Shown: positions 32,592 to 48,887, counted from the stretch's first letter. The stretch: 52,651 nucleotides of DNA from a virus (IMGVR_UViG_3300021599_002177:1-52651); one strand, 5' to 3'. Numbers and translations are program-made. The notes: generated from the sequence alone by a model not told the origin.

Positions 32592-32614
32592 ACCGAGTTC
32601 GTAGGGAACTTGGT
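32592..32614 (+). promoter_or_regulatory. 5'-leader hairpin
   Basis: ACCGAGTTC - GTAGG - GAACTTGGT, nine base pairs (one G-T), directly followed by the AAATGACGAAACG leader motif of gene 32636. Confidence 0.6.
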
Positions 32615-32635
32615 AAATGACGAAACGAGATACCA

Positions 32636-33097
32636 ATGCTAGACAAAGAAAAACCAATTCAGGGTGTTTCTGTTTATGCCGAGTTTGTAAAACCGGGATA
32701 CAGAACAGAAATGTTTATTACTCCTGACGGATATACCCCGACAGGTGAGATAGTTCCTGCCAAGATTTATCGCAGGGTCGTATCAAAGGACAAGCCAAAG
32801 AAGTTATGGCAACAGACCACAGTTCAGTTCGCAGATGATATTGCGACAGTTGGTGGCTACAAGGATTTATCTGATGTTGCTCTCAAAGACCAATATGTTT
32901 CTAAGCGTTTAGAACACCTACAAGCCATATTCGCTGGTTTGGTATCAGGTGAGTGGGAAATGAAAAATGACCCATTTCTAATAGAAACTTCTCAAAATGA
33001 TTTGATTGAGATTGGCAAAAGTGAAACACCAGTAAAAGTAATTTATCGTATCAACCAAAGCAGAAAAGCACTTGGCTTTCCTGTTGAGATTGCTTAG
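32636..33097 (+). CDS. Hypothetical protein preceding the MoxR-VWA module
   Basis: 153 residues; beta-rich N-terminus (GVSVYAEFVKPGYRTEMFIT, AKIYRRVVSKDKPKKLW) and a helical region (VSKRLEHLQAIFAGLV). Thirteen bases before the ATPase gene, so likely part of the same transcript. Unknown function. Confidence 0.65.
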   Translation: MLDKEKPIQGVSVYAEFVKPGYRTEMFITPDGYTPTGEIVPAKIYRRVVSKDKPKKLWQQTTVQFADDIATVGGYKDLSDVALKDQYVSKRLEHLQAIFAGLVSGEWEMKNDPFLIETSQNDLIEIGKSETPVKVIYRINQSRKALGFPVEIA

Positions 33098-33109
33098 GGG
33101 GCAATAAAA

Positions 33110-33535
33110 ATGGATACAATTATCAAAGACAAATTGGCAGAACTAAGAGGCGATTTTTGGACTATCGTTTCTGATTGCTTGGCTCAAAGTGTCCATGAGG
33201 ATACTTCTTTGCGACTTGGCGCAAAGGTGTTGCCTAGTGGTCGTTGCGTTGAGCGAGCAAGTGGCGACAAGAGAAAAGCAAGAGAGCGAGTTAGTGCTAT
33301 GACCCCTAGTGGTGTTGAGGTTGAGAACCTAAGTGCTGATGAGTTTTATGTTCGTCCTAATGGACAAAAGTATTTCACTCGCCAATGGGGAGTTCATACT
33401 GATGTAGCAGTTCTACGCAAAGCAAGAGAAGCAACTAAAAAATACTTCACAGAGGGCGTTGGTTCTCCACAGTTCGCATTTTTCTATGGAGTTCCGGGAA
33501 CAGGTAAAACTGCTTTGGTAGAAGCAAGTTTTTGA
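33110..33535 (+). pseudogene. MoxR-type AAA ATPase, N-terminal part
   Basis: 141 residues ending FFYGVPGTGKTALVEASF, a Walker A motif at 127-134 (GVPGTGKT). The frame stops right after it. The Walker B segment expected next (about 70 residues, ending near LIDEI..ALIDP..) is absent, and the remaining half continues in another frame at 33532. An intact protein would be a ring ATPase working with a VWA protein. Confidence 0.75.
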
Positions 33536-33936
33536 ACCCTGATAGGGGAACTATCAAAGTCCATGAAAACTTTTATGTAATTTCTGCTACCAACCCTAAC
33601 GCTCCGGGAGTTCGCATGAGCGAAGCGTTGCTATCTCGTTTCCAAATCCAAGCAGAACTAACAACTGATTGGTCGTTGGCAAAGAAGTTAGGTGTTCCAG
33701 CGACAATGGTTAGCGTTGCTCAAAATCTTTACAAGCGCACACAAGGCGATAGTGCTGAAATCTCATGGTCGCCACAAATGCGTGAGTTGCTAGGTTTCAG
33801 AGATACAAGTGAAATCTTTGGAACAGAGTTTGCTATCTCTAATCTAATTGCGAGCGCACCTGAATTAGATAGAGATGTTGTTGTTGATGTTATTGCTCGT
33901 GCCTTTGGCGCAGAGCATAAGCCAGCGAAAATCTAG
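33532..33936 (+). pseudogene. MoxR-type AAA ATPase, C-terminal part
   Basis: Reads NPDRGTIKVHENFYVISATNPNAPGVRMSEALLSRFQIQAEL in successive blocks: sensor 1 Asn in SATNPN and Arg finger in LLSRF. The only available start is a TTG overlapping the previous stop. Joined to 33110-33535 it lacks Walker B, so it would not hydrolyse ATP normally. Best read as the second half of a deleted gene. Confidence 0.75.
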
Positions 33937-34118
33937 GTTTTCCCTAGAACCTAGTTGTTGGCTAGGAAGTGGGGGATTGGTGTTGGTATCCCAACCCCCA
34001 CTACTCCTACATATAAAGAGAGAAAAAAGATTTTTTCCCCCTTCATATATAGACAAAATAAAAATAAAAATGATATGATATTTCCACAAGGACACACGAT
34101 TAGAAAAGGACACAGGAC

Positions 34119-34622
34119 ATGGCACATATCAAGCCACAGGAACTAAGTCGTTCCAAGATAAAGACACCTAGCGATTGGCTAGGAGTTGGCTATGAAATTA
34201 CTCAATTAGTAAATCTTTGGTCTGATAGAACAGACCTAGTTGCTTTGCTAGGAACAGAAGCAGGTCAAGGCGCACCTGCTTGCTATCTACCTGCTCTCGC
34301 AGAAGTAGAAGTAAATACAAAAGAAGCCTTTGGTGAAATCACTACACCTAACATGATTGACGACTTGACTAAAAGAAAGAACCAATACGAGTTTGCTAAG
34401 GCAGTTGGCGCAATTCGCCATGAGGCATACCACGCAAAGTTTTCAGCATGGGATATTCCACTCGCAGGTAAGACACTAAAGCAAGATGAGTTTGAGGCTT
34501 TGATGTTGCTAGAGGAAGGTCGCATAGAAGCGTGGGGTATCAAGACCCACCCTGACGCAAAAGTTTTTCTACGAGCAAGTGCTATGGGTTTGATTAGCAA
34601 GAATTATCGCAGGGTCGCTTGA
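34119..34622 (+). CDS. HExxH (zincin-like) protein, N-terminal part of a peptidase-VWA protein
   Basis: 167 residues. AIRHEAYHAKFSAW contains HEAYH (101-105, HExxH) and LMLLEEGRIEAWGI supplies the downstream Glu, a layout of zinc metallopeptidase-like domains fused to VWA in phage MoxR modules. The frame ends at KNYRRVA just as a linker should lead to the VWA gene, whose frame is already open there. I read the pair as one gene split by a deletion. Confidence 0.65.
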   Translation: MAHIKPQELSRSKIKTPSDWLGVGYEITQLVNLWSDRTDLVALLGTEAGQGAPACYLPALAEVEVNTKEAFGEITTPNMIDDLTKRKNQYEFAKAVGAIRHEAYHAKFSAWDIPLAGKTLKQDEFEALMLLEEGRIEAWGIKTHPDAKVFLRASAMGLISKNYRRVA

Positions 34623-34683
34623 TGAACTCCAAGCCTTTGATTTAGTAGATAAGGTCAATGGCATTTTAGGTTCTGACCTAGTT

Positions 34684-35826
34684 ATGAAACTAAAGGAAAT
34701 TATTTACCAATTCCAAGACCACGCAATTCATACTGATATTTCTGCTTGCTACCCACTAGCGATTGAGTGGGCGAGATTAGTTCGTGAGAAGGCAGAGGAA
34801 GCAGGGGAACAACCAACTAAAGAGGAACAAGAAGCGTTTGCTGAAATGATGAGCGACTTACTTGGTGAAATGAAAGAAAACATTTCTATCTCTAATGCCA
34901 ATGAGTTATCAGAGCAGAAGCAATCAGAGGACATGAAAGAGAGCGCAACTGCTAAAGCCAATACTTCTAAAGAGCAAAAGAAAAATGAGGAAATTGCTCG
35001 TCAAGTATTCTCAAAGAGTTCAGGTCCGGGAGAGGCAAGCACTCGCTCACAGTTGATTGAGAAGCGAAGCCCAAATGGTAAAGAGCGCAATAGCGCAGTA
35101 AAAATTGCTAGGGCTTTGGATAGAGCAAAGTATCGTGAGCGTGGTGTGATTGAGATTGGAAGTGTTATCCCACCGGGAAAACTAAACACTCGCAAAATTA
35201 TTCAGGCAAAGGCTTTGGAACAAAAAGGTATCTTTACTCAACCAAAGGCTTTCACAAAGAAAGTTCGTAAGCACACAGACGAACCTGAATTATCAGTTGG
35301 CGTAATGGTTGATATATCAGGCTCAATGAGTTCTGCTATGAACCCAATGGCTTCTACTGCTTGGATTATGGGTGAGGCAGTTCGCCGAGTTCAGGGTCGT
35401 TGCGCTATGGTTTATTATGGTTCAGATGTTTTCCCAACTCTCAAAGTTGGACAACGCCTAAAAGATGTAAATGTTTATTCTGCCCCTGACGGAACTGAAA
35501 AGTTTGATAGAGCCTTTCGTGCTTTGGACGGCGCACTCAATCTGCTCAATGGTGAGGGCGCAAGATTATTGGTCGTTGTATCTGACGGACACTACACAAG
35601 TGAGGAAATGGAAAGCGCAAAGGCGTGGGTTGCTCGTTGCTCAAAGAACGGCGTAGCAGTTCTATGGTTGCCAATCGGAGATAACGGCGCAACCGCAAAG
35701 CATATTTGCGCTGGTGCTAACGCAGAGGTCGTTGAGAACATAACTGACCCAAGTGTGTCTGCTTTGATTATCGGCAAGAACGCCGAGAAAGTTTTATCAA
35801 CGGCAGGGCAAAGGTTCGTGGCATGA
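34684..35826 (+). CDS. VWA (CoxE/CobT-like) domain protein
   Basis: 380 residues; the frame is open upstream to about 34600 (GSLDELQAFDLVDKV). A long charged N-terminal half is followed by a von Willebrand A domain with MIDAS DISGS (210-214) and LLVVVSDGH as the third-motif strand. MoxR/VWA pairs work as ATP-driven metal-insertion or protein-remodelling chaperones. Here it follows the HExxH part in the same direction. Confidence 0.8.
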   Translation: MKLKEIIYQFQDHAIHTDISACYPLAIEWARLVREKAEEAGEQPTKEEQEAFAEMMSDLLGEMKENISISNANELSEQKQSEDMKESATAKANTSKEQKKNEEIARQVFSKSSGPGEASTRSQLIEKRSPNGKERNSAVKIARALDRAKYRERGVIEIGSVIPPGKLNTRKIIQAKALEQKGIFTQPKAFTKKVRKHTDEPELSVGVMVDISGSMSSAMNPMASTAWIMGEAVRRVQGRCAMVYYGSDVFPTLKVGQRLKDVNVYSAPDGTEKFDRAFRALDGALNLLNGEGARLLVVVSDGHYTSEEMESAKAWVARCSKNGVAVLWLPIGDNGATAKHICAGANAEVVENITDPSVSALIIGKNAEKVLSTAGQRFVA

Positions 35827-35896
35827 GATAACGGCGAGGTTTCGTGGTCGGGTATCGTCCTTATTGGTGCGTGTGTCCCCCCGATTACGGATAGAG

Positions 35897-35933
35897 AAAT
35901 CCCCTTCGTGTATGCGAGGGGGATTTTCTTTTC
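35897..35933 (+). terminator. Terminator
   Basis: AAATCCCC / GGGGGATTTT stem with a TTCGTGTATGCGA loop region, then a T-rich end. Ends the MoxR-VWA transcript. Confidence 0.85.
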
Positions 35934-35973
35934 CCCCTTTATATGTATGCGCTATATAAGAAGGGGGAAAAAA
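35929..35973. repeat. T4C5 ... G5A4 palindromic element
   Basis: TTTTCCCCCTTTATATG ... CTATATAAGAAGGGGG then A's: the two arms are complementary over about 15 bases. The fullest example of an element that recurs after terminators from 32.5 to 46 kb. Confidence 0.65.
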
Positions 35974-36284
35974 CGGATAGGACGAGAGAAGCTTTAGCGA
36001 AAGGAAGTTTTCATTTCCCCTACCTAGCCGACCAGACCGAGTAGTCGTTGAGCGTAAAGTTGCTGAAGCATGACGGAACTAAATAATCTATTTTCCCGCT
36101 TTCATAAAGAGTAAAAATCCTACGAACTTATATTTTCAGTTCCACCCCAAGTCGTTACCCACCCAGGAATTTACGCTCAAAAATTAAAGATGACGCATAG
36201 GAAGTAAAAACTTTTATTTGTTATTGACGATTACTGCTCGCTTTATGATAGGATTTTCCCAAGACAAATGACGAAAGGTAAAAC

Positions 36285-36437
36285 ATGAAATACGAAGTAG
36301 TAGTTTCAGCAAACATCAGAACTGTATGGGAAGCCGATAGTGAGGAACAGGCTTTACGACAAGCAGAGGCTTGGACGGCAGAGGAATATGGCGACCTAGT
36401 TCATAAAGCAAACTTTGACGCAAGGGAGATTTCATAA
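36285..36437 (+). CDS. Small protein (50 aa)
   Basis: KYEVVVSANIRTVWEADSEE then QALRQAEAW: a short beta-alpha unit of a type common in phages. Leader motif AAATGACGAAAGG at 36266-36278; the stop overlaps the next ATG (TAATG). Confidence 0.6.
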   Translation: MKYEVVVSANIRTVWEADSEEQALRQAEAWTAEEYGDLVHKANFDAREIS

Positions 36438-36661
36438 TGGCTGAAATCCATTACCTGATTTGTTTTGATACAGAAACTAAAAAATGGAAAGCGGCTGACG
36501 AGGCTTTGGGTTCATGGTTTAGAAACGGCCCGGTGTGGGACGGCCCGGATCATGATGAGGGCAAGTGGAGATTACTAAATTATGACGACCCTATTGAAAT
36601 GGATTTGGAATACGAGGCAACTGAAAAAGTCGGCGAGATGTTACGCCAACTAAATAAGTAG
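36437..36661 (+). CDS. Hypothetical protein (74 aa)
   Basis: AEIHYLICFDTETKKWKAA, WRLLNYDDPIEMDLEYEA. Beta-rich and acidic. Coupled to the previous gene. Not recognised. Confidence 0.6.
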   Translation: MAEIHYLICFDTETKKWKAADEALGSWFRNGPVWDGPDHDEGKWRLLNYDDPIEMDLEYEATEKVGEMLRQLNK

Positions 36662-36670
36662 GGGGAAAAA

Positions 36671-37138
36671 ATGCCAACGGCAGGGGAATATGAGATTGAG
36701 TTCTTTTGGCTTGACGGAAACACTCCTGACGGCGAGCATCAAGATAGTGTGTGGTGGGAGAACGGAGCGGTCTGCAAAGTTGGCTTGGGTGATTTCGAAG
36801 TAACAATTAATGTAGACGGTGTAACTAGGATTGAGGATAGAGAAACGGGTAGCACCTACACAAGCAGTAGCGAGTTCCCTAGCGAGATAAATAACGACAG
36901 AGCTTTATCGGAAGCGAGTTCTGGAAACTACCCACGCTTTGAGTGGCAAAACAATTCGTGGTTCGACATTTACACATCTGACGGAGAACACTTAGACATG
37001 GTTAATCACGAGGCAGACGAAGCCTTTGACCAAGCGTGTGAGTATTTGATTGAGCAGTTCGTAAATGTTTGTATGATTGAAAATAATCAAATGCCACAAG
37101 TTGAGGGCAGACAAGTCGTGGTTCTTGATTTAGATTAG
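36671..37138 (+). CDS. Hypothetical acidic protein (155 aa)
   Basis: Start follows AGGGGGAAAAA (the G5A5 motif acts here as the ribosome site). Beta-rich (EYEIEFFWLDG, VTINVDGVTRIED) then helical (EAFDQACEYLIEQFVN). Not recognised. Confidence 0.6.
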   Translation: MPTAGEYEIEFFWLDGNTPDGEHQDSVWWENGAVCKVGLGDFEVTINVDGVTRIEDRETGSTYTSSSEFPSEINNDRALSEASSGNYPRFEWQNNSWFDIYTSDGEHLDMVNHEADEAFDQACEYLIEQFVNVCMIENNQMPQVEGRQVVVLDLD

Positions 37139-37183
37139 ATTTTTGGTAGAATAGACCTAAGACAAAATGACGAGGGGTAAAAA

Positions 37184-37678
37184 ATGCATTGTGTTCAATT
37201 ACTTTTGGTTGAGGCAGATACTCACCAAGAAGCAATAGGGGAAGTTGAAAGCAGACTAGAGGAAGCAGATTGGTCTGATTGGTCTGAAGTTGGTGGTCGC
37301 TGGCAAGGTATGTTCGGAGATGATGAACCTACTAACGCTCTAAATTATGCTAATGACCCTGAAGTATTTATGAAGTGGATAAACACTTTTACTGAATACA
37401 GAACTACTAACATAAAAGAGGCTCTCGCTGGTTTAGATAAAAAGGGAAAAACTCTAAATGAAATTGTGGATACTTATGACCCAAGAGTAAATGATTTTGA
37501 GTTAGGTATGTCTGGCTACTACATAAGAAGGATTGGAACTTTGCTTGCCGATTATTGGACTAGCGATAGTGCTATCTGGGATTTAGCGGCAGGAACAGGA
37601 AATCTAAGTTATCTTATTGAAAGAATAGAAAAAGAACCGAAAAGACAATTTGCAGTAATTGTTGATTTCCACCACTAA
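37184..37678 (+). CDS. Hypothetical protein with WSEVGGRW motif (164 aa)
   Basis: Begins HCVQLLLVEADTHQEAI and has DWSDWSEVGGRWQGMFG, an aromatic block seen in several phage proteins, then a helical C-terminal half. A TAGAAT -10 lies at 37147-37152. Function unknown. Confidence 0.6.
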   Translation: MHCVQLLLVEADTHQEAIGEVESRLEEADWSDWSEVGGRWQGMFGDDEPTNALNYANDPEVFMKWINTFTEYRTTNIKEALAGLDKKGKTLNEIVDTYDPRVNDFELGMSGYYIRRIGTLLADYWTSDSAIWDLAAGTGNLSYLIERIEKEPKRQFAVIVDFHH

Positions 37679-37718
37679 AAAGAGTAGAATAAAGATACCG
37701 AACAGAAAGGGAAAATAA

Positions 37719-37958
37719 ATGACGGCTTTCGGTGAAATGGTTGAGAACACGACTTACATTGTGGAAACTCCAAAATGTTTTGTGTGTGGAGATTATGGGC
37801 AAGTAGAAGTGCCTATGACGGGTTTTCTAATTAGACAACTCGGTGGGCTAATCCAAGAGGCTTACCCCGATTTAGATTTAGGCTTGCGTGAGCAAATGAT
37901 TTCAGGCACGCACCCTGATTGTTGGGAACTCCGTTTTGGAAAGTGTGAAACGGCGTGA
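37719..37958 (+). CDS. Hypothetical protein (79 aa)
   Basis: CFVCGDYG gives one CxxC near the N-terminus, and HPDCWELRFGKC a later Cys pair; possible zinc site. Promoter TTGATT (37662-37667), 17-base spacer, TAGAAT (37685-37690). ATG preceded by GAAAGGG. Confidence 0.6.
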   Translation: MTAFGEMVENTTYIVETPKCFVCGDYGQVEVPMTGFLIRQLGGLIQEAYPDLDLGLREQMISGTHPDCWELRFGKCETA

Positions 37959-38152
37959 GAACAAAAAAGCAAGTCCGTAAGGACATAAAAGACCAAGCAG
38001 AACAAATAATGTATTTCGAGGCAAGTATGCCCGACATAGACAAAGCAACAAAGATGTTAGCCGAACGGCTAGAGAGTCTTTACTATGCTGGTTATGATGA
38101 CGGATTGGATTACGCAGTAAATAATCCTGACAAACTAGGTGCTTCCTACTAA
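37955..38152 (+). CDS. Hypothetical helical protein (65 aa)
   Basis: GTG start overlapping the previous stop (GTGA). Helical: KKQVRKDIKDQAEQIMYFEA, YYAGYDDGLDYA. Not recognised. Confidence 0.55.
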   Translation: MRTKKQVRKDIKDQAEQIMYFEASMPDIDKATKMLAERLESLYYAGYDDGLDYAVNNPDKLGASY

Positions 38153-38175
38153 CGACAAAACGAAACGGAGAAAAA

Positions 38176-38379
38176 ATGTTTTTCAATGGATTTACTTTAC
38201 TAATGATGATTATTGGCGGTGGGATTGGATTTGCTATCTCACGCTGGACTCTCACTACTGAATACCTTGTGGATAACTTAGCCAATAGAGTTGGACACGA
38301 ATACGACTCGGAAGGTCAAGTTGTTATTTACACAGGACTTTATGACGAGGAACAAGAAGTCTATGCTGAGGGCTACTGA
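38176..38379 (+). CDS. Small membrane protein (67 aa)
   Basis: N-terminal Gly/Ile-rich membrane segment (FFNGFTLLMMIIGGGIGFAI) and an acidic C-terminal half. GGAG ribosome site. Unknown function. Confidence 0.6.
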   Translation: MFFNGFTLLMMIIGGGIGFAISRWTLTTEYLVDNLANRVGHEYDSEGQVVIYTGLYDEEQEVYAEGY

Positions 38380-38423
38380 TTTTTTCCCCCTTATTATGTA
38401 GAGGCGACACAGTAAGTTTGGAT

Positions 38424-38452
38424 TTGCGAAAGGCAGGAAAGTAGGCTATTAT
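38424..38452 (+). promoter_or_regulatory. Boxed promoter
   Basis: TTGCGA, 17-base spacer containing GGCAGGAAAGTAGG, TATTAT (38447-38452). Serves gene 38510. Confidence 0.65.
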
Positions 38453-38509
38453 TTTCTTACTAGGCAATCACGCTTAGTAAATGACGAAACGAAAGGTAGG
38501 AAGTAGCCA

Positions 38510-38994: not shown

Positions 38995-39024
38995 CCCCCC
39001 TACTATGTATAAAGGGGGAAAAAA
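38990..39024. repeat. T5C6 ... G5A6 palindromic element
   Basis: TTTTTCCCCCC, a TACTATGTATAAA centre, GGGGGAAAAAA. Next to a terminator, as for the other copies. Confidence 0.65.
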
Positions 39025-39042: not shown

Positions 39043-39071
39043 TAGAAAAAGTCAGATAGGCTTGGTAGAAT
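39043..39071 (+). promoter_or_regulatory. Boxed promoter
   Basis: TAGAAA (39043-39048), 17-base spacer with GTCAGATAGG, TAGAAT (39066-39071). Leader hairpin TTAGC-AAGGG-GCTAA follows at 39079-39093. Confidence 0.7.
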
Positions 39072-39115
39072 AGAGTTGTTAGCAAGGGGCTAACGGCTAG
39101 GGAAAAGGAAAACAA

Positions 39116-40532: not shown

Positions 40533-40561
40533 TTGAAAAGGGCAGGGAAGTAGAGTATTAT
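40533..40561 (+). promoter_or_regulatory. Boxed promoter
   Basis: TTGAAA (40533-40538), 17-base spacer with GGCAGGGAAGTAG, TATTAT (40556-40561). A hairpin TTGTTC-TAGGGA-GAACAA (40595-40612) abuts ATG 40613. Confidence 0.7.
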
Positions 40562-40612
40562 TTTCTTAACGGCAAATCATTAGGGATAAGCCGATTGTTC
40601 TAGGGAGAACAA

Positions 40613-40993
40613 ATGCAAAACTCAGACAAGATGACGGTGGGAATTACTTTCACCGTTGGCGAGTTGTGGGAAGCCGTCTTTGGTTCAGACGGCGCAGGAA
40701 TGGTTCACTGGTCTACCGAAATCAGAAATGAAAACGGCGAGGACATTGATTTATGGACTACCGATGAAAACGGTGAGTCAGTAACAAATCCACAAAACTT
40801 CCGAGTTTATGAAGATGAAGAAGAGAAGTGGCACGATGTATCTCTCGAACAACTTCGTGTTGGTTTCGAGAAGGCTCTTGTTGAAAACTCAACTCATTGC
40901 GGTGGCTATGCGTTGAAGCTTGATGACTACGACGCTTGCTTCGGCGACATCGTTATTCAGTATGCGGTATTCGGAGAACTTGTCTACGGATAA
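40613..40993 (+). CDS. Hypothetical acidic protein (126 aa)
   Basis: VGITFTVGELWEAVFGSDGA, EIRNENGEDIDLWT, then LKLDDYDACFGDIVIQYAVFG. Beta-rich. The start codon touches the leader hairpin, so translation may depend on hairpin opening. Unknown function. Confidence 0.6.
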   Translation: MQNSDKMTVGITFTVGELWEAVFGSDGAGMVHWSTEIRNENGEDIDLWTTDENGESVTNPQNFRVYEDEEEKWHDVSLEQLRVGFEKALVENSTHCGGYALKLDDYDACFGDIVIQYAVFGELVYG

Positions 40994-41088: not shown

Positions 41089-41117
41089 TGGAGAAGTGCA
41101 GGAAGGTTTGGTAGAAT
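41089..41117 (+). promoter_or_regulatory. Boxed promoter
   Basis: TGGAGA, 17-base spacer AGTGCAGGAAGGTTTGG, TAGAAT (41112-41117). Leader hairpin ACCAGC-AAGGG-GCTGGT at 41124-41140. Confidence 0.68.
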
Positions 41118-41154
41118 TAATGCACCAGCAAGGGGCTGGTAAAGAAAGGGAATT

Positions 41155-41411: not shown

Positions 41412-41465
41412 CTTTCTCTATATAAGAAGGGGGAAAAATAAAAAAGGATCCAGGTGAAATAAAAA

Positions 41466-41486
41466 GTCAGGAAAGTATGTTAGACT
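41466..41486 (+). promoter_or_regulatory. Boxed promoter with weak -35
   Basis: GTCAGGAAAGTATGT then TAGACT (41481-41486). The expected -35 position reads AATAAA, within a degenerate R1 copy (41447-41469). Hairpin CTCGCT-AAGGG-AGCGAG at 41496-41512. Confidence 0.55.
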
Positions 41487-41529
41487 TAATACACACTCGC
41501 TAAGGGAGCGAGAGAATAGGGAAACAAAA

Positions 41530-41838
41530 ATGGAACTACTAACGAAAGAACTTCGCAAGAAGTTGCCACCGCTTTACGCAAATGAAGAAGTGAAAGACCC
41601 AATGGTAATTGCTAAGTTTTTTGCGCTCGCAAGCAACTGGACTTGGTTTGCTATGGAGTTTGACGGAGAAGATTTATTCTTCGGAATGGTTCACGGCTTT
41701 GAGAAGGAGTTAGGTTACTTCAGCCTGAAAGAGTTACAGAGCCTGAAACTTTCAATGGGCGGAATCGAAATCCCTGCGGTTGAAAGAGATATCAACTGGA
41801 CACCCCGCCGACTCTCAGAACTCAAGGAATACGCCTAG
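41530..41838 (+). CDS. Conserved phage hypothetical protein (102 aa)
   Basis: LLTKELRKKLPPLYANEEVK, VIAKFFALASNWTWFAMEFDG, LFFGMVHGFEKELGYFSLKEL. This order resembles the DUF2958 family of plasmid and phage proteins (LP.LY..E......V.AK.F....WTWY..EFDG.D..FG.V.G.E.ELGYFSL.EL), so I assign it there tentatively. Single-gene unit. Confidence 0.75.
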   Translation: MELLTKELRKKLPPLYANEEVKDPMVIAKFFALASNWTWFAMEFDGEDLFFGMVHGFEKELGYFSLKELQSLKLSMGGIEIPAVERDINWTPRRLSELKEYA

Positions 41839-41880: not shown

Positions 41881-41924
41881 CTTTCTATATATAAAGGGGG
41901 AAAAAAGAAACACCGAGAATGTTA

Positions 41925-41953: not shown

Positions 41954-42020
41954 AATAACAACTTGGTAGGGGGAAGCCGTTGGTCACCTGAACGACTTGA
42001 ACTCTAGAGGGTCGGAAACA

Positions 42021-42245
42021 ATGCGGCTCCCTACTAAGCAACTAGGGAAAAAAGAATATCCAGAAATCGTTGTTCCGCTTGTAGGACAAGACGGCAACGC
42101 AGTCGCAATTATGGGACGAGTGGCAAACGCTATGCGTAAGTCAGGAGTCGCACAGGAAGAGATTAATCAGTATCTCGATGAAAGTATGTCGGGAGATTAC
42201 GATAATCTTCTTCGCACCGCTATCAAATGGGTAGCAACGGAGTAA
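42021..42245 (+). CDS. Conserved small phage protein (74 aa)
   Basis: From ATG 42021: EIVVPLVGQDGNAVAIMGRV, NAMRKSGVAQEEINQYLDES, SGDYDNLLRTAIKWV. The GxDGNAxxI and SGDYDxLL blocks recur in phage proteins of unknown function. A TTG start at 41997 would add eight residues. Confidence 0.7.
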   Translation: MRLPTKQLGKKEYPEIVVPLVGQDGNAVAIMGRVANAMRKSGVAQEEINQYLDESMSGDYDNLLRTAIKWVATE

Positions 42246-42290: not shown

Positions 42291-42333
42291 CTTGTCTATA
42301 TATAAAGGGGGAAAAAGAGAGTAGGATAGAAAC

Positions 42334-43072: not shown

Positions 43073-43309
43073 ATGAGTTATGAAGGAAGTATGAAAGGTT
43101 CGGGTATCTACTCCGAAGATGTAACACTTGAGGTTGAGTGTGATGAGTGCGGTAAGTCTTGGGAAGAAGATTTTATGACCGACGACTGGGGAAATGTATC
43201 CTCAGAAGTAAAGTGCGAGTGCGGTAATGCTTGGACTTTTGAAAAGGAACAAGAGGAAATGGGCGACCCTAATGCGCCTGATACCTTAGAAGAGTTATGG
43301 GGCGAATAG
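43073..43309 (+). CDS. Zinc-ribbon protein (78 aa)
   Basis: LEVECDECGKSWEEDF and SSEVKCECGNAWTFE form a CxxC..CxC ribbon. Single-gene unit. Unknown function, likely nucleic-acid or protein binding. Confidence 0.68.
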   Translation: MSYEGSMKGSGIYSEDVTLEVECDECGKSWEEDFMTDDWGNVSSEVKCECGNAWTFEKEQEEMGDPNAPDTLEELWGE

Positions 43310-43314
43310 ACCCG

Positions 43315-43344
43315 AAGCCCTCCACCGAAAGGTGGGGGGTTTTT
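43315..43344 (+). terminator. Terminator with GNRA loop
   Basis: AAGCCCTCCACC - GAAA - GGTGGGGGGTTTTT. Confidence 0.93.
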
Positions 43345-43397
43345 CTATATAAGAAGGGGAAAAATCAGGAAGGTTGAGTGCGGTTATTCTTTAGAGT

Positions 43398-43643
43398 ATG
43401 GAAATAGTTCAGAAGGTATATCACTCAAATGGATCTAGTGCGCCGTTTATTGTTGCCATAGTTGATGACCCTGATGCCGGGGATACAAAACTTGTAATTA
43501 TGTTTGAAGATAATGAATACACCGCCGTTTTATCGTTAGACAGACTTATTGAAAATGAGGATATAGGAGACAGAAACTCTCATAGTGCCGATAAGTATGA
43601 GTATGCCTTGCGTGATGAACTTTGGAATGATTTTAACTACTAA
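43398..43643 (+). CDS. Hypothetical protein (81 aa)
   Basis: IVQKVYHSNGSSAPFIVAIV, DTKLVIMFEDNEYTAVLSLD. TATTCT (43385-43390) lies seven bases from the ATG, so leaderless. Fourteen bases before the Ntn hydrolase gene. Not recognised. Confidence 0.6.
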   Translation: MEIVQKVYHSNGSSAPFIVAIVDDPDAGDTKLVIMFEDNEYTAVLSLDRLIENEDIGDRNSHSADKYEYALRDELWNDFNY

Positions 43644-43657
43644 TTAAGGATTGAGCA

Positions 43658-44227
43658 ATGACCACAATAGCATCAGTGCAGGGTGATGGCTGGGCGGTTA
43701 TTGGTTATGACTCCAGAGTTTCAGAGGAAGAAGGTAGAACTTATATTCTGCCGAAAGACAATGGAAAAGTTTTTAAGAATGGTAACTACATAATTGGAGT
43801 AGCTGGTGATGTGCGGGCTATTAATTTATTGGCTCATGTTTTTAAGCCACCAGTTTGCACCATAAACACTTTAGGGGTAAAACTAAATAAGTTTATGACT
43901 GCCGTATTTATCCCAGAACTTAAGAAGTGTTTTGAGGAAGCCTCTTACTCAAAAGATGGCGACCACGAAAGTCAGATTATTGTTTTAGTTAATGGAACTA
44001 TCTATGAGATAGGTGAGGACTACTCTTGGTGCCACGATACCGTTGGGGCATACTCTATTGGTTCAGGTTCAGCCTATGCTCTAGGCGTTCTTAATGCCTT
44101 ATCAGAGGGAAAGAAAAGAACTCTCACTAACGCAAGGTCAGCTATCAAAACTGCGCTCGCCGTGTCTGCAAAGTTTGATAACAAAACTGCCGAACCTTTT
44201 TATCTTTTAACGCAATACCGAGATTAG
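43658..44227 (+). CDS. Proteasome-like Ntn hydrolase, copy 2
   Basis: 189 residues: MTTIASVQGDGWAVIGYDSR (Thr2, Asp18), Lys33 in LPKDNGKVF, and YSIGSGSAYALGVLNAL near the end. Same catalytic triad positions as the copy at 5255-5779, with clear but limited identity. Threonine-protease fold; oligomeric state and substrate unknown. No HslU-like ATPase is seen; the only nearby AAA protein is the damaged MoxR. Confidence 0.8.
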   Translation: MTTIASVQGDGWAVIGYDSRVSEEEGRTYILPKDNGKVFKNGNYIIGVAGDVRAINLLAHVFKPPVCTINTLGVKLNKFMTAVFIPELKKCFEEASYSKDGDHESQIIVLVNGTIYEIGEDYSWCHDTVGAYSIGSGSAYALGVLNALSEGKKRTLTNARSAIKTALAVSAKFDNKTAEPFYLLTQYRD

Positions 44228-44250
44228 TTTTTCCCCCCTTATACATAGAC

Positions 44251-44280
44251 AAAAAAATAACCCCCGATTTCTCGGGGGCT
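44251..44280 (-). terminator. Leftward terminator
   Basis: On the minus strand AGCCCCCGAG - AAAT - CGGGGG then TTATTTTTTT, just downstream of the leftward 38-aa gene. Confidence 0.85.
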
Positions 44281-44287
44281 ACTTTCT

Positions 44288-44404
44288 TTAGCACTTTTCG
44301 CAAAGTATGTTGCGGTAATAATCTATTTGCCTAATTTGGAATTGCTCTCCGCACCGATAGCAATTTATCCAAATCATTACTTCACTTGCTTTTACTCTTG
44401 CCAC
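44288..44404 (-). CDS. Leftward zinc-ribbon microgene (38 aa)
   Basis: GTG 44404 with GAAAGGGA six bases upstream gives ARVKASEVMIWINCYRCGEQ followed by FQIRQIDYYRNILCEKC, a complete CxxC..CxxC ribbon. It is the only leftward gene in a 23-kb rightward block and has its own terminator, which argues strongly that it is real. Probably a small regulator. Confidence 0.65.
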   Translation of the reverse strand: MARVKASEVMIWINCYRCGEQFQIRQIDYYRNILCEKC

Positions 44405-44518
44405 TTGAGTTCCCTTTCTCTTGGCTTGTATCTTAATTTTATCTTATGTGCCGTCAAAAGTGTGGGAACTTATAAGTTGGCGTGTTATTTATTTATTTTT
44501 TATTTTCCCCTTTATATG

Positions 44519-44547
44519 TAGAAAAAGTCAGGAAAGTCGTGTAGAAT
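44519..44547 (+). promoter_or_regulatory. Boxed promoter
   Basis: TAGAAA (44519-44524), 17-base spacer AAGTCAGGAAAGTCGTG, TAGAAT (44542-44547). Hairpin CGCT-AAGGGA-AGCG at 44563-44576. Confidence 0.72.
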
Positions 44548-44606
44548 AAAGCCATACACACTCGCTAAGGGAAGCGAAGGTGAATAGGGATAAAGGGGTA
44601 ATTAAA

Positions 44607-45251
44607 TTGCCAAAGGAAAAAACAAAAGTATGTATTGGGTGTTTCTATCCTCTACCGCTTTCACAGTTTAATAAATACAACTGGGGCGTTGATGGAGTAA
44701 GAGCAAGATGTAAGAAGTGTTTCGCAATTCACCGCAAAGGTGGCCCGGCTCGCACCGCAAAGCGCAAGGAACTATTAGCAAAAGGATTACGCCCTTGCTC
44801 TGGTTGTAAAAGAAGCAAGCCTCTATCCTCTTTCCAAGAAAAAACATACGCAAATGGAAATGAAGGCTGGGAAGGTCAATGTAAGAGTTGCGTATCTAAG
44901 TCCTCAAAAGTTAAGAACGCGAACAGAAACAAAGATACAAGAGGTTTCGTGTTTGAGTATCTAAAGAAGCACCCTTGCGTGGATTGCGGTGAAACCAATG
45001 TATTAGCCCTAGAGTTTGACCATATTCACAGCAAGAAGTTTGATATTGGAAACGCACTAAATAGCAATAAAGGTATGAAATTAGTTAAGGCAGAAATTAA
45101 AAAGTGTGTTGTGCGTTGCTCTAGTTGCCACCGCATAAAGACTCACATAGAAAGAGATACTTGGAGATTTAATCTATCTTTACAAGACAAGGCTACAAGC
45201 CGTAAAATTAAGAACACAAAGCAATACAAAACTTTAATGAAGGCGGGGTGA
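44607..45251 (+). CDS. HNH endonuclease with two N-terminal zinc fingers
   Basis: About 214 residues from TTG 44607 (AAGGGG eight bases upstream; GTG 44580 would add nine residues). Two finger modules (VCIGCFYPLPLSQF..CKKC and PCSGCKRSKPLSSF..CKSC) precede an HNH core: HPCVDCGE, LEFDHIHSKKF, VRCSSCHRIKTH. Related in its HNH core to the enzyme at 3149-3589. A mobile homing-type enzyme, here driven by a standard phage boxed promoter. Confidence 0.85.
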   Translation: MPKEKTKVCIGCFYPLPLSQFNKYNWGVDGVRARCKKCFAIHRKGGPARTAKRKELLAKGLRPCSGCKRSKPLSSFQEKTYANGNEGWEGQCKSCVSKSSKVKNANRNKDTRGFVFEYLKKHPCVDCGETNVLALEFDHIHSKKFDIGNALNSNKGMKLVKAEIKKCVVRCSSCHRIKTHIERDTWRFNLSLQDKATSRKIKNTKQYKTLMKAG

Positions 45252-45255
45252 TTAA

Positions 45256-45378
45256 ATGGGATATGTAGAAATCTTTCGCTTAGATGAGGAAGGTGCTGGC
45301 TGGGTAAATCTAGAGGAAGCCACACCTGCCGAACTCTCAAATCTAGAAAAAGGTTTAGCAGAGGAAGGCGCACTTTAA
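45256..45378 (+). CDS. Acidic microprotein (40 aa)
   Basis: GYVEIFRLDEEGAGWVNLEE then ATPAELSNLEKGLAEEGAL. Four bases after the HNH stop, so probably co-translated. Could be an inhibitor or partner of the nuclease, but only from position. Confidence 0.5.
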   Translation: MGYVEIFRLDEEGAGWVNLEEATPAELSNLEKGLAEEGAL

Positions 45379-45466
45379 GAAAGGAAAGGGGGCGCTCGCA
45401 AGGGCGCTCTCTTTTCTCCCTATATAAGTAGGGGGAAAATAAAAAGAGAGAAAGGAAAATAAAGCT

Positions 45467-45661
45467 ATGAAGTTTCTACCTGATAGTGCGGTGCTTGGGA
45501 CACTAGGACACATTAAGAACGCCACAAGAAAGAAAAGAGGTAGTGCGGTTGGGTTGAGTATGGTTAGAGATAGACACGCTTATTACTACCCACGCAGAAC
45601 CACGCAGGAATTATTAGCCTTAGCAGGACACGCCCGAAAAGCAAATAAAGCAGGAAAGTAG
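45467..45661 (+). CDS. Small protein with YYPxRTTQELLALA motif, copy 2
   Basis: 64 residues; GSAVGLSMVRDRHAYYYPRR then TTQELLALAGHARKANK. Paralogue of 2352-2522. GAAAGGAAAATAAAGCT precedes the ATG. Basic and helical; function unknown. Confidence 0.65.
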   Translation: MKFLPDSAVLGTLGHIKNATRKKRGSAVGLSMVRDRHAYYYPRRTTQELLALAGHARKANKAGK

Positions 45662-45687
45662 AAAAAAGCAGGGAAGTAGTGTAAAGT
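45659..45687 (+). promoter_or_regulatory. Boxed promoter
   Basis: TAGAAA, 17-base spacer AAAGCAGGGAAGTAGTG, TAAAGT (45682-45687). Hairpin GTGGCT-AAGGG-AGCCAC at 45695-45711. Confidence 0.68.
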
Positions 45688-45727
45688 TCTACTAGTGGCT
45701 AAGGGAGCCACAGAAAGCAGGGACAAA

Positions 45728-45883
45728 GTGAAAACAGAAGCAAAGTTTATTAGGCGCAGAATTGCGGTTGCTCTTATTGCGCTCGCTCTTATTGCTTGGG
45801 CGTTTGACGCAACAACACCTGAACAATGCAAAGTTCCAGTTGAGCAGATGAATAGTTTTTGTAAGGACTTGCTCTACCCGTAA
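45728..45883 (+). CDS. Small membrane protein (51 aa)
   Basis: GTG 45728 follows the leader hairpin. One membrane segment (RRRIAVALIALALIAWAF), then an outside part with two Cys (EQCKVPVEQ, SFCKDLLYP). A GTG at 45695 would start inside the hairpin. Unknown function. Confidence 0.6.
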   Translation: MKTEAKFIRRRIAVALIALALIAWAFDATTPEQCKVPVEQMNSFCKDLLYP

Positions 45884-45918
45884 GGGTAGGGCAGGTCTCT
45901 ATATATAAAGGGGGAAAA

Positions 45919-46152
45919 ATGCCTAGACTTAGAAAACCAGAACCAATTATGTTAAATGATGATGAACTCTATGCGGTTATGCGAGCCACATTTCAACACC
46001 CTAAAGTTCGTAAATGGAAGCCGACAGGTTATGAACTAGAGTTATTAAAAGACGCTTACGAAAAAATCGCTACAGAGTATTACGCTCGTGCAGAAGAAGA
46101 GCAGCGCATTGACAATGAACTACAACTAATAAGAGCCGAATACGAGGGATAA
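45919..46152 (+). CDS. Hypothetical protein (77 aa)
   Basis: AAAGGGGGAAAA (the G5A5 motif) is the ribosome site. Helical: MLNDDELYAVMRATFQHPKV, ELELLKDAYEKIATEYY. Not recognised. Heads a run of four close genes. Confidence 0.6.
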   Translation: MPRLRKPEPIMLNDDELYAVMRATFQHPKVRKWKPTGYELELLKDAYEKIATEYYARAEEEQRIDNELQLIRAEYEG

Positions 46153-46155
46153 AAG

Positions 46156-46344
46156 ATGATGTTTGATATTGGCTTTGGGCTACCGACTTACTTGGCTCAT
46201 ATAACTATTGGAGTTGGTCGCTACACCCTTTGGCTAAACATTGTGGCTACTAACTGGAAAACAATTCATTTTGGAAAAAGGTGGGGCGACTGGGTTGGTT
46301 GTTTCTCCGTCTTTACTTTTGCCTATACAAGGAAGGAGGGGTAG
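46156..46344 (+). CDS. Small membrane-associated protein (62 aa)
   Basis: Hydrophobic and Trp-rich (PTYLAHITIGVGRYTLWLNI, WVGCFSVFTFAY). Not recognised. Three bases after the previous stop. Confidence 0.55.
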   Translation: MMFDIGFGLPTYLAHITIGVGRYTLWLNIVATNWKTIHFGKRWGDWVGCFSVFTFAYTRKEG

Positions 46345-46346
46345 AT

Positions 46347-46538
46347 ATGGTTTTAGATAATGGAACAATGCTTGCAATAATTATTGCGCTCGCAGGTTCG
46401 TGTTTTGTTATGGTTGTTGGTATCAGAGCGCAGGGACAGTTGCACCGAGTCATCAACCAAAAGAATGAAAAAATCAGATTTCTTGAAGCGGAAATCTCTA
46501 GACAGAAAAGGAAAGAACTAACAAATGAAAGTCGCTAG
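46347..46538 (+). CDS. Membrane protein with coiled-coil tail (63 aa)
   Basis: Start at ATG 46347 from GGAGGGG upstream. TM segment (TMLAIIIALAGSCFVMVVGI), then a charged helix (NQKNEKIRFLEAEISRQKRK). Spanin-like topology, but the host has no outer membrane, so I do not assign that. Overlaps the next gene by 14 bases. Confidence 0.55.
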   Translation: MVLDNGTMLAIIIALAGSCFVMVVGIRAQGQLHRVINQKNEKIRFLEAEISRQKRKELTNESR

Positions 46539-46755
46539 TATTCAAGAAGAAGCAGTAAAGCTTTATGAAGGTGGGCTGGCTATTGAAGCAGTCGCTAAGG
46601 AGTTGGGGGTTGCCTACCGAACTGCAAGAAAGGCTATCTACTCTAAAGGGGTAGTGGCTAGAGACCCTTCTGCAAGGCTACTAGGTAGAACAAGTCCTAC
46701 TGGAAAGAAGGCACAGGCAAAGACAACAACTACTAAGAAGAGGGGAAAAAAGTAA
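46525..46755 (+). CDS. HTH DNA-binding protein with basic tail
   Basis: 76 residues: SIQEEAVKLYEGGLAIEAVA then KELGVAYRTARKAIYSKGV is a Hin-type helix-turn-helix, followed by a Lys/Thr-rich tail. Likely a small regulator. The HTH resembles the C-terminal one at 49435-49932. Confidence 0.7.
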   Translation: MKVASIQEEAVKLYEGGLAIEAVAKELGVAYRTARKAIYSKGVVARDPSARLLGRTSPTGKKAQAKTTTTKKRGKK

Positions 46756-46920
46756 ATGGACTTTAACCGAATTGTTTGGACTGCCGTTCTTTCTATGGCG
46801 CTCGCAGTAGGTTCAATTATTGCTGGACTACAGAACAGTTCAGGGGGAGACAGTCTTGCCTTGTCTCTCGGACTGAGTTCTATCGCTCTTGCAACCCTTT
46901 CAGCAAGGGAAAGACGCTAG
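46756..46920 (+). CDS. Two-TM small membrane protein (54 aa)
   Basis: FNRIVWTAVLSMALAVGSII and LALSLGLSSIALATLSA form two short helices around a Gly/Ser turn, ending ARERR. Starts directly after the HTH stop. Holin-like size and topology; it precedes the lytic transglycosylase unit. Confidence 0.6.
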   Translation: MDFNRIVWTAVLSMALAVGSIIAGLQNSSGGDSLALSLGLSSIALATLSARERR

Positions 46921-46936
46921 GCGCTCGCAAGTCTCT

Positions 46937-46981
46937 AAAGTGTGGGGAAGGGCTGAAAACAGTCCTTCCTGCACTTTTTTT
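46937..46981 (+). terminator. Large terminator hairpin
   Basis: AAAGTGTGGGGAAGG.CTG - AAAA - CAG.CCTTCCTGCACTTT then T4. The 3' arm carries the reverse complement of the promoter box (AGTGCAGGAAGG). Confidence 0.85.
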
Positions 46982-47068
46982 GGGGCATTTAAGGATTTTT
47001 ATGGATTTAGCACGCTCAGCAGGGCTTTTAAGCGTAAAAAGTATTTTTGAGACACGCATACTGCGGAT

Positions 47069-47098
47069 TTGACTAGGGGACTTCCCTGCACTTATGCT
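47069..47098 (+). promoter_or_regulatory. Promoter with inverted spacer box
   Basis: TTGACT (47069-47074), 18-base spacer, TATGCT (47093-47098). The spacer holds GACTTCCCTGCACTT, the reverse complement of the box seen in other promoters. Confidence 0.6.
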
Positions 47099-47099
47099 A

Positions 47100-47237
47100 G
47101 AGTTTATGCAGTACCAAAGAACGACACAAGGAGATCTACGAATTAGACACTTGAAGTAAGGCTATCCCCTAAGAGGCGATGGTCGGGTTGGCTCAGAGAG
47201 CAACCCTGTCCCCGTAACCTAACAAAGGAAAAACCAA
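47100..47237 (+). promoter_or_regulatory. Structured leader of the lytic transglycosylase gene
   Basis: About 140 untranslated bases with a hairpin GGGTT-GGCTC-AGA-GAGC-AACCC near 47183-47205. Actinobacterial wall-lytic genes often carry c-di-AMP riboswitches, but I cannot match that consensus here. Confidence 0.35.
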
Positions 47238-47687
47238 ATGAACCCAACTCTAAAGACCCCTGAAAAGGTATTGGCGCTGGTATCGCTCTTTATAGTTCTA
47301 TCATCAGGAGCAGTAGCAGTAGCAGTAGAGAACAAAGTCCAAGAGGTTGTCGCAACAGAGCAAGTGGCAACAGAAAGAGTAAGACCCGTAGTTGAGTCAG
47401 AGCCAGTCAAGAAGACTAAGCCTCTCTCCTACTTTGAGAACAAGACAAGCCTTACCGACATTGAGTTGGTGTGGCTATTAGAAGCCGTAGGCTTTGAAGG
47501 TCAAGACCTAAAAGAAGCTTGGGCAATAGCCAAGAAGGAAAGCAATGGTCGCCCCCTTGCCTTTAATGGCAACACGCTAACTGGCGACAACTCTTACGGC
47601 ATATTCCAAATCAACATGATTAACTCTCTAGGCGAAGACCGTAGAGAACCTTATGCCGTTGCTTGGTTCTCTAGTGCCTTCAACTAG
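47238..47687 (+). pseudogene. Secreted lytic transglycosylase-like protein, N-terminal part
   Basis: 149 residues: signal peptide/TM (VLALVSLFIVLSSGAVAVAV), a linker, then an SLT-type lysozyme fold start: IAKKESNGRPLAFNGNTLTG, DNSYGIFQINMINSLGEDRR, with Glu in KKESNG as the catalytic residue. The frame stops about 12 residues later; the rest of the domain (about 45 residues) is missing and the expected C-terminal domain continues in another frame. Confidence 0.65.
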
Positions 47688-48036
47688 TGAGCAAGCGCTC
47701 GCCGTTGAGACAGAGCCAGTAGCGATTAAAGAAGAACCAAAGAAGGACAAGAAAGCCCCAACTTTTCAAGCCAACCCTGAAAAGTATGTTTATCTTTCAG
47801 CTTTGAAAGTAAATGCTTATGAAGGTAATTCTGAGTCAGTCAAGACAGTTCAACTGCGGTTGAATGATTTAGGCTTTAGTTCAGTAATGAATGACAAGTT
47901 TGGTCGTCTTGGTGAAGGAGCAGTTGAAGCGATCAACGCATTTAGAAAGTCCAAGGGACTTAGTGAGTGCGGTTGCTTTGATGAAGAAGTTTTGGCTTAT
48001 CTCTTTGATGGTCAAAGTGTTGGAGTTCTTCCATAA
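47653..48036 (+). CDS. Peptidoglycan-binding (PG_binding_1) domain fragment
   Basis: 127 residues overlapping the previous frame. SVKTVQLRLNDLGFSS, DKFGRLGEGAVEAINAFRKS, KGLSECGCFDEEVLAYLF is a PG_binding_1 domain. Alone it has no signal peptide, so it is probably the detached C-terminus of the transglycosylase gene. Confidence 0.65.
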   Translation: MPLLGSLVPSTSEQALAVETEPVAIKEEPKKDKKAPTFQANPEKYVYLSALKVNAYEGNSESVKTVQLRLNDLGFSSVMNDKFGRLGEGAVEAINAFRKSKGLSECGCFDEEVLAYLFDGQSVGVLP

Positions 48037-48044
48037 ATTAAGAC

Positions 48045-48086
48045 AACAAAAAACCCCCTTCCTTTTGGTAGGGGGTTCTTTGTTTT
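48045..48086. terminator. Bidirectional terminator
   Basis: AACAAAAAACCCCCTTCC - TTTT - GGTAGGGGGTTCTTTGTTTT; works on both strands, between convergent genes. Confidence 0.92.
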
Positions 48087-48093
48087 AGGGGTT

Positions 48094-48435
48094 TTATACT
48101 TGTGCAAAGATTTTCAATAAGCGGTCTGCATAATCTTTATCAAGACCTAATTGCTCACCTTCATCATCATAACCCCCTGCAATAACTACATCACCGAGAA
48201 TTACATCAGGAAAGTTTGGGAAGTTAGCCAACCAAATTTCAGTGGCTCTTGAATTTACTGGAAGACCCTGCAACTTTCCTTCTTCATTCATAATAAGTGT
48301 GTAACCACTTGCAAGAGTCTTTGGCTCAATAAGACCACCTACCGCCATTTGAAGTGTTAGTAGTTCGTTACTATCTGCCGTTAGGTCAATGATAGAAGCG
48401 TTTCCTTCTGCGGTTAGTTTAATTGCTAGTTTCAT
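48094..48435 (-). CDS. DUF3846 protein
   Basis: 113 residues; TLQMAVGGLIEPKTL, LIMNEEGKLQGLPVNSRATE, FPDVILGDVVIAGG match DUF3846 (Q..VGG.IE...NEEGkl.gLp.N..A), a small family of phages and mobile elements with unknown function. Own boxed promoter. Confidence 0.82.
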   Translation of the reverse strand: MKLAIKLTAEGNASIIDLTADSNELLTLQMAVGGLIEPKTLASGYTLIMNEEGKLQGLPVNSRATEIWLANFPNFPDVILGDVVIAGGYDDEGEQLGLDKDYADRLLKIFAQV

Positions 48436-48477
48436 TTGTTTTCTCCCTAGTGTGGTACTTGGTTTCCCACTACCGAA

Positions 48478-48506
48478 AGAATAGATTACTTTCCTGCACT
48501 TTGCAA
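48478..48506 (-). promoter_or_regulatory. Boxed promoter (leftward)
   Basis: TTGCAA (48501-48506), 17-base spacer AGTGCAGGAAAGTAATC, TATTCT (48478-48483). Confidence 0.72.
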
Positions 48507-48540
48507 GATTAAAGGGAAGCTTTTGTGCGGTGTGTCTTAG

Positions 48541-48573
48541 AAAAAGAAAAAGCCCCCCTTGGATAGGGGGGCT
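48541..48573 (-). terminator. Leftward terminator
   Basis: AGCCCCCC - TATCCA - GGGGGGCT then TTTTCTTTTT on the minus strand. Confidence 0.92.
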
Positions 48574-48584
48574 AATTCTTGCGG

Positions 48585-48845
48585 TTACTTGGTTAGGAGT
48601 AAGTCCAAGATTTCGCTATCTGAAAGGTTGCGGTAAGGGTTCTCATAAGAGTTTGGATTCTCTTCAGTTACCTTAACCTTTAGTACGGTTGCATTCATTC
48701 CCTTTGCATTCTTTGCGGTTTCAGTAATTAAATCGCAAGCATTTGTTGCGGTATCAACATGGAAAGAATAATCTCTTTCTGTAGTGATTGTTCCGTTTGA
48801 AGTTTCTTCTGTGTACTTAACTGTAATTTGAACTCCGTATGACAT
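48585..48845 (-). CDS. Hypothetical protein (86 aa)
   Basis: Beta-rich (SYGVQITVKYTEETSNGTIT, TVLKVKVTEENPNS), ending with a helix (SDSEILDLLLT). Not recognised. Single-gene unit with its own promoter, hairpin leader and terminator. Confidence 0.65.
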   Translation of the reverse strand: MSYGVQITVKYTEETSNGTITTERDYSFHVDTATNACDLITETAKNAKGMNATVLKVKVTEENPNSYENPYRNLSDSEILDLLLTK

Positions 48846-48864
48846 TTGTTTTCTCCCTTTTTGT

Positions 48865-48887
48865 TATTGAAGCCCCTTGCTTCAATA
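48865..48887 (-). promoter_or_regulatory. 5'-leader hairpin, best example
   Basis: TATTGAAGC - AAGGG - GCTTCAATA, nine perfect base pairs around the constant AAGGG loop, 20 bases before ATG 48845. Confidence 0.75.

Follow-up and report, generated by a model that had tools for sequence, protein, structure and literature searches.

Hairpins with exchangeable stems and a preferred AGGG loop near the probable 5' ends of many short mRNAs of an uncultured tailed phage

Why should many leaders of a phage begin with a hairpin whose stem is different each time while its loop usually contains AGGG? The question is raised by IMGVR_UViG_3300021599_002177:1-52651 (hereafter the window), a complete IMG/VR record 52,651 bases long, in which an initial reading of the DNA had picked out 5'-leader hairpins with changing stems and an AAGGG loop directly after promoters that carry a conserved spacer box. 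To our knowledge, few phages furnish a large group of short messages with a common type of 5' RNA structure. The claim that these leaders contain a selected RNA structure is strongly supported, by covariation at orthologous leaders and by placement at the inferred transcription start; what is conserved is pairing, together with a preference for AGGG in the loop.

The window is a fragment of a tailed-phage genome, encoding a ribonucleotide reductase, a tryptophan halogenase and virion genes. The closest cellular relatives of the reductase are actinobacterial (67% and 63% identity) and its closest named phage relative, at 77.5%, is that of Actinomycetia phage DSL-LC01, from a lake; the host of this uncultured phage is therefore probably an actinobacterium. 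DNA comparison of the region at megablast level matched no named phage, a scan of the window against Rfam raised two tRNAs alone above the gathering threshold, the hairpins matching no family, and we did not find these leaders described in the open-licence literature.

All five perfect AAGGG hairpins of the original prediction are present, the last on the minus strand, which had gone unstated:
39078..39094, plus strand: 5' hairpin GTTAGC-AAGGG-GCTAAC, first pair at the inferred +1; extra outward pairs are possible with G-U
41124..41140, plus strand: 5' hairpin ACCAGC-AAGGG-GCTGGT, starting at the inferred +1
41496..41512, plus strand: 5' hairpin CTCGCT-AAGGG-AGCGAG, starting at about +4
45695..45711, plus strand: 5' hairpin GTGGCT-AAGGG-AGCCAC, starting at the inferred +2
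48864..48888, minus strand: 5' hairpin TTATTGAAGC-AAGGG-GCTTCAATAA, with 8 inner pairs from the inferred +1 (A48886)

The 39078 hairpin recurs unchanged at the same leader in four relatives, and the stem at 45695 is found in relatives as TTGGCT/AGCCAA and GTGGCT/AGTCAC. Among the AAGGG sites on both strands of the window (n=115), five sit between arms that form six or more Watson-Crick pairs, where the frequency for the window's pentamers as a whole predicts 0.063 (binomial P 7e-9), and the median prediction for the hairpins leaves the loop unpaired (1.0) and the stem paired (0.99).

Each of the five follows directly on a boxed promoter, as had been claimed. The promoters have a -35-like TTGxxA, a GCAGGAAGG box in the spacer (consensus [GT]CAGG[AG]A[AG]G) and a TANNNT -10, at 17-bp spacing. 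They were located with a position weight matrix (PWM) and the TANNNT filter, at scores above 16; this first matrix was kept because one iterated on its own matches admitted false sites. The promoters of the five hairpins, all found by PWM, are:
39043..39071, plus strand: promoter with the box variant TCAGATAGG and -10 TAGAAT
41089..41117, plus strand: promoter with the GCAGGAAGG box and -10 TAGAAT
41458..41486, plus strand: promoter with a TCAGGAAAG box and -10 TAGACT
45659..45687, plus strand: promoter with a GCAGGGAAG box and -10 TAAAGT
48893..48921, minus strand: promoter TTGTAA / GCAGGAAAG / TATCTT

Above a score of 16 the fetched sequence yielded 548 sites, of which many recur in loci that overlap or are nearly identical; read backwards, it yielded none. 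An exact scan of viral contigs for GCAGGAAAGT-N4-TAGAAT gave 12 matches that resemble chance occurrences, none with a hairpin. From the window and its relatives we assembled 102 non-redundant leaders 3' of boxed promoters. In 79 of these the seventh position 3' of the -10 is A, in 96 a pyrimidine stands immediately before that position, and in several leaderless genes of the set the ATG falls exactly on that A; these regularities support placing the transcription start, in all likelihood, at the A about 7 nt 3' of the -10.

The GCAGGAAGG box sits in the spacer of promoters that are otherwise sigma-70-like, and is shared with three phages whose leaders have no hairpin; it is possibly an activator or sigma contact. 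The window itself has a leaderless gene at 45467 (plus strand), its ATG coinciding with the inferred start, with orthologues in seven relatives.

How general are the hairpins, and where do they lie? A strong hairpin is present in 40 of the 102 leaders, a count that depends on the threshold and comes from a sample in which leaders of close relatives are, despite clustering, only partly independent. The first pair of 34 of the 40 falls within -2 to +5 of the inferred start, with a mode of +2; dinucleotide shuffles averaged 1.5 hairpins so placed and never exceeded 4. The distance from the 3' end of the hairpin to the start codon varies little, with a median of 19 nt (interquartile range 17-21), just beyond where an initiating ribosome would be expected to reach, and an AGGGAG Shine-Dalgarno (SD) sequence adjoins the hairpin. 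Leaders with a hairpin are about 40 nt long; those without are often 20-28 nt, or absent altogether.

This placement bears on the possibility that the hairpin acts during transcription, affecting promoter escape, pausing or premature termination, for which a stem beginning mostly at +1 to +4 of the inferred start would be well situated. The narrow spacing to the start codon, however, points to translation or decay, and the hairpin is followed by purine-rich sequence with no U tract, so that we consider a transcriptional role very improbable. Intrinsic termination in the sense direction was rejected on the same grounds (no U tract, 84% purine after the stem), and the terminator-like sites listed for the window include no hairpin of this set on its sense strand.

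Evidence that the pairing is itself selected comes from orthologous genes. The original prediction took the changing stems of the five copies as compensatory; these are different, non-homologous leaders of one phage and so hold no covariation in themselves, but true covariation is found where orthologous leaders are aligned. For the gene at 48585-48845 (minus strand; gpA) 13 distinct leaders were available. Across eight pairs, 99% of alignment cells are paired and six of the eight show double compensatory changes, whereas sliding the partner by 1-3 columns reduces pairing to 47% or less; as the 13 leaders are related, they represent a handful of evolutionary events rather than 13. The variants include TTATTGAAGC-AAGGG-GCTTCAATAA, TTGTAAGTC-AAGGG-GACTTACAA, TTGTAAGTC-AAACG-GACTTACAG, TTATTGGAAC-AGGGA-GTTCCAATA and TTATTGGAGC-AGGGA-GTTCCAATA. 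No covariation was drawn from MAFFT alignments of unrelated leaders or of the leaders of another gene, gpD, in which the stems were misaligned. Both observations that could have undone the claim turned out otherwise: covariation is present, and the leaders lie within the transcripts as predicted from the promoters.

Whole hairpins are also exchanged. The leader of the gene at 41530-41838 (gpC) carries CTCGCT-AAGGG-AGCGAG in the window, CCAGC-AGGGA-GCTGG in one relative (L173) and, in two others (L175 and L177), the second, larger type of structured leader taken up below, which likewise begins at the inferred start. The conserved thing is therefore pairing, or generic structure, at the 5' end and not a sequence. 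A palindromic DNA operator for a phage repressor or activator was also considered. Inverted repeats near promoters might suggest one, and actinophages of clusters EG and O do have repeated inverted repeats of conserved sequence 5' of genes (PMC7302621). A DNA-binding protein, however, needs sequence, not symmetry; here the arms are wholly different from copy to copy (35 distinct 5' arms among 40 hairpins) yet remain symmetrical, with some G-U pairs. As the arm sequences are unrelated, we reject an operator as scarcely tenable.

A covariance model built on the gpA orthologues recovered further leaders from close relatives (E 1e-6, 2e-5, 0.007 and 0.0095), its remaining weak matches in the window being mostly non-leaders. 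Among distant relatives and in DSL-LC01 nothing was found below E 0.4, and DSL-LC01 has neither the boxed promoter nor AAGGG/AGGGA hairpins of at least 5 bp. The hairpin leaders have so far been seen in one uncultured phage lineage.

Is the loop as constant as was first thought? It is not: AGGG is preferred rather than fixed. The loops of the 40 hairpins comprise 14 AAGGG, 12 AGGGA, five longer ones that contain AGGG and nine others, mostly A-rich, so that AGGGA is nearly as frequent as AAGGG once relatives are included; AAACG replaces AAGGG in orthologues of an AAGGG leader in three relatives, and AATAAC and others occur. Hairpins of 6 bp enclose about 12 per 1000 occurrences of AAGGG and about 4 per 1000 of AGGGA, against 0-2 for similar purine pentamers, in the window and those relatives with long contigs. 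The near variants that had been noticed at 44563, 40595 and 32592 all exist, and appear with two further hairpins and the associated promoters below:
44519..44547, plus strand: promoter (PWM) 5' of a gene assigned to HNH endonucleases by PHROGs
44562..44577, plus strand: 5' hairpin TCGCT-AAGGGA-AGCGA; longer in relatives, CACTCGCT-AAGGGA-AGCGAGTG
40533..40561, plus strand: promoter TTGAAA / GCAGGGAAG / TATTAT (PWM)
40569..40612, plus strand: leader predicted to fold into a first hairpin, an ACGGC..GCCG arm whose loop contains AGGG, and a second, TTGTTCT-AGGG-AGAACAA (40595-40612)
32592..32614, plus strand: hairpin ACCGAGTTC-GTAGG-GAACTTGGT with one G-U pair, at about +4; the preceding TAGAAT -10 (32577-32582) has no GCAGGAAGG box
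38424..38480, plus strand: promoter and 5' hairpin TTACTAGGC-AATCAC-GCTTAGTAA (38457-38480), with a non-AGGG loop; one relative has ACTAGGC-AATAAC-GCCTAGT
48452..48506, minus strand: promoter and long-loop hairpin GTGG-GAAACCAAGTA-CCAC; GCGG/CCGC in relatives

A preferred loop invites the idea that it is read by a phage or host RNA-binding protein, whether a regulator, an antiterminator of the nut/boxB type or a CsrA-like protein, that would coordinate many small genes. The AAGGG/AGGGA pentaloop recurs in many independent leaders with a pyrimidine-purine closing pair in 35 of 39, and it lies early in the transcript, as does lambda boxB, itself a short stem with a purine pentaloop. But the stems vary freely, even within this phage, where a lambda-type nut site would keep one stem sequence and come with boxA and an N-type peptide; the register of AGGG shifts by one base, and at the same gene the hairpin may be replaced by one with a non-AGGG loop or by a 75-nt structure. 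Strong intrinsic terminators lie 3' of several hairpin genes, which disfavours antitermination, and a scan of small genes recognised no RNA-binding protein, N-like or other, boxA not having been searched for. CsrA/Rsm binding is disfavoured in particular: the C-G closed AAGGG loops (for example 39078, 41124 and 48864) read AAGGG|G and lack the GGA core (ANGGA) that CsrA requires, although AGGGA loops would fit. A protein site of any of these kinds appears doubtful to us.

The alternative reader is the ribosome. The working SD of the leaders is mostly AGGGAG or AGGGAA, so the loop copies the phage's own SD motif, and the resemblance to a ribosome-binding sequence pointed out at the start holds to that extent. 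An AGGG displayed near the 5' end and accessible to the 30S subunit might act as a standby site, raising the local concentration of ribosomes, or might stabilise the message through a non-translating 30S in the manner of STAB-SD elements, the stem serving for display alone. AGGG is present in 31 of the 40 loops, which are predicted to be unpaired; at least two copies of it occur in 28 of 39 hairpin leaders; its one-base slide (AAGGG/AGGGA) fits base-pairing better than it does a rigid protein pocket; and the tetraloop at 40595-40612 displays the gene's own, true SD, adjoining the ATG at 40613. Against this, the loop is calculated to pair weakly with the standard anti-SD tail, at -3.3 to -3.5 kcal/mol as compared with -9.2 for AGGAGG, nine of the 40 hairpins have no AGGG, and orthologues of an AAGGG leader may have AAACG. 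A displayed SD or standby site of this kind is possible, though on balance we think it unlikely.

The explanation we favour, to which we give a probability of about one half, is that these are exchangeable 5'-terminal hairpins that shield the mRNA from 5'-end-dependent decay. Many short messages of the phage, of probable early type, would carry such a hairpin at their 5' end. With transcription probably starting at the A about 7 nt past the -10, the stem would begin at +1 to +4 and leave nearly no free 5' end; the stretch that follows it, up to the start codon and including the AGGGAG SD, would keep the ribosome-binding region open. The hairpin would withhold the 5' end from RppH, from 5' sensing by RNase E and, in actinobacteria, from RNase J, and the transcript would thereby be protected. 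The purine loop probably adds a second feature, protective or ribosome-attracting, because it copies the SD, or it may simply be a purine loop that nucleases avoid. The loops are 91% purine and the 17 nt 3' of the stem 84%; mycobacterial RNase E, in purified form, cleaves preferentially just 5' of cytidines (PMC10641625). Of the three functions originally proposed, protein-binding site, stability cap and decoy for 16S rRNA, the cap fits best, and the decoy has no specific support.

Several observations weigh against protection of this kind. About 60% of leaders behind the same promoters, short and leaderless ones included, have no strong hairpin, which is therefore dispensable for expression; in a few cases, such as 44562 in the window, the stem begins farther in, at +6 to +10, and part of the 5' end stays free; and a pure stability cap needs no particular loop, though AGGG predominates and the closing pair is biased (C-G 24, T-A 11). 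We advance a composite version tentatively and rate it as rather unlikely: a modular RNA cap in which a stem of free sequence displays an SD-like AGGG loop that docks the 30S or a dedicated factor, so that mRNAs would be both shielded and pre-loaded during host takeover, the cassettes being swapped between genes.

Precedents exist for a protective 5' hairpin. In E. coli, 5'-terminal hairpins block 5'-end-dependent decay (PMC3997798), and in M. smegmatis a 5' stem-loop with an SD after it protects the gyrase mRNA, which loses stability when the stem-loop is disrupted (reviewed in PMC2358910). Our leaders share with gyrase and with E. coli ompA/papA a stem at or within a few nucleotides of the 5' end (34 of 40, as inferred), an open SD after it, and conservation of pairing over sequence (six of eight gpA pairs); they differ in being spread over many genes of one phage and in their strong preference for AGGG purine pentaloops, and their stabilising effect is putative. 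STAB-SD elements, SD-like sequences close to the 5' end that precede no start codon, and the polypurine leaders of B. subtilis aprE, cryIIIA and SP82 likewise have a purine motif of SD type there besides the working SD; in our leaders the candidate motif is inside a hairpin loop and weakly complementary to the anti-SD. PMC3997798 describes B. subtilis leaders, aprE among them, as stabilised by a 5' stem-loop together with ribosome binding, and STAB-SD in other bacteria.

Among actinophages, repeated start-associated motifs or inverted repeats lie 5' of non-structural genes in clusters K, EF, O and EG, those of EG being 14-22 bp 5' of start codons (PMC3203893, PMC7302621). The SAS/ESAS elements of cluster K mycobacteriophages consist of a conserved 13-bp GGGATAGGAGCCC at the start codon and a conserved 17-bp inverted repeat 5' of it (PMC3203893). 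These and the EG and O repeats resemble our leaders in preceding many non-structural genes and in joining an SD-like part to an inverted repeat. In them, however, it is sequence that is conserved (the 13-bp SAS, the 17-18-bp repeats); our leaders, with AGGGAG and variable stems, are not of the SAS type and keep pairing and loop alone.

If the hairpins do stabilise or pre-load messages, they illustrate a way in which a phage infecting uncultured bacteria could give its own mRNA an advantage over the host's, and would offer a ready natural set of sequence-independent mRNA caps for studies of 5'-end-dependent decay in actinobacteria. The loop's preference for the phage's own SD motif makes an old question, whether SD-like sequences at the 5' end protect mRNA, directly testable by mutation.

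Leaders of other types accompany the hairpins. A second structured 5' leader, of about 75-77 nt, starts at the inferred transcription start at 41962-42038 (plus strand) and has a 10-bp outer stem and an inner GNCG/CGNC helix. Its core, CTGGTCACCTGAACG ... CGGAAACAATA, is strongly conserved; RNAalifold predicts 21 pairs, five with double compensatory changes, and the leader, present in nine further loci, matches nothing in Rfam. A different ribosome-binding type has the motif AAATGACGAAA(C)GAAAGG or ACGACGAAAGGA just 5' of start codons (25746, 30363, 31392, 32615 and 38481, plus strand) and is common to five more distant phages.

Two further elements were noted between genes. An inverted repeat at 46940-46990, GTGCAGGAAGG...CCTTCC..GCAC with a T run, is apparently a terminator that contains the promoter box sequence, and is found in four relatives. 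After most terminators between 39000 and 46000, and before the next promoter, there is a CTATATATAAAGGGGGAAAAA-like repeat (for example 39000-39023, 41418-41437, 41884-41904, 42296-42316 and 45899-45918), which could be a late promoter or a ribosome-binding site; one copy lies directly 5' of an ATG (45919).

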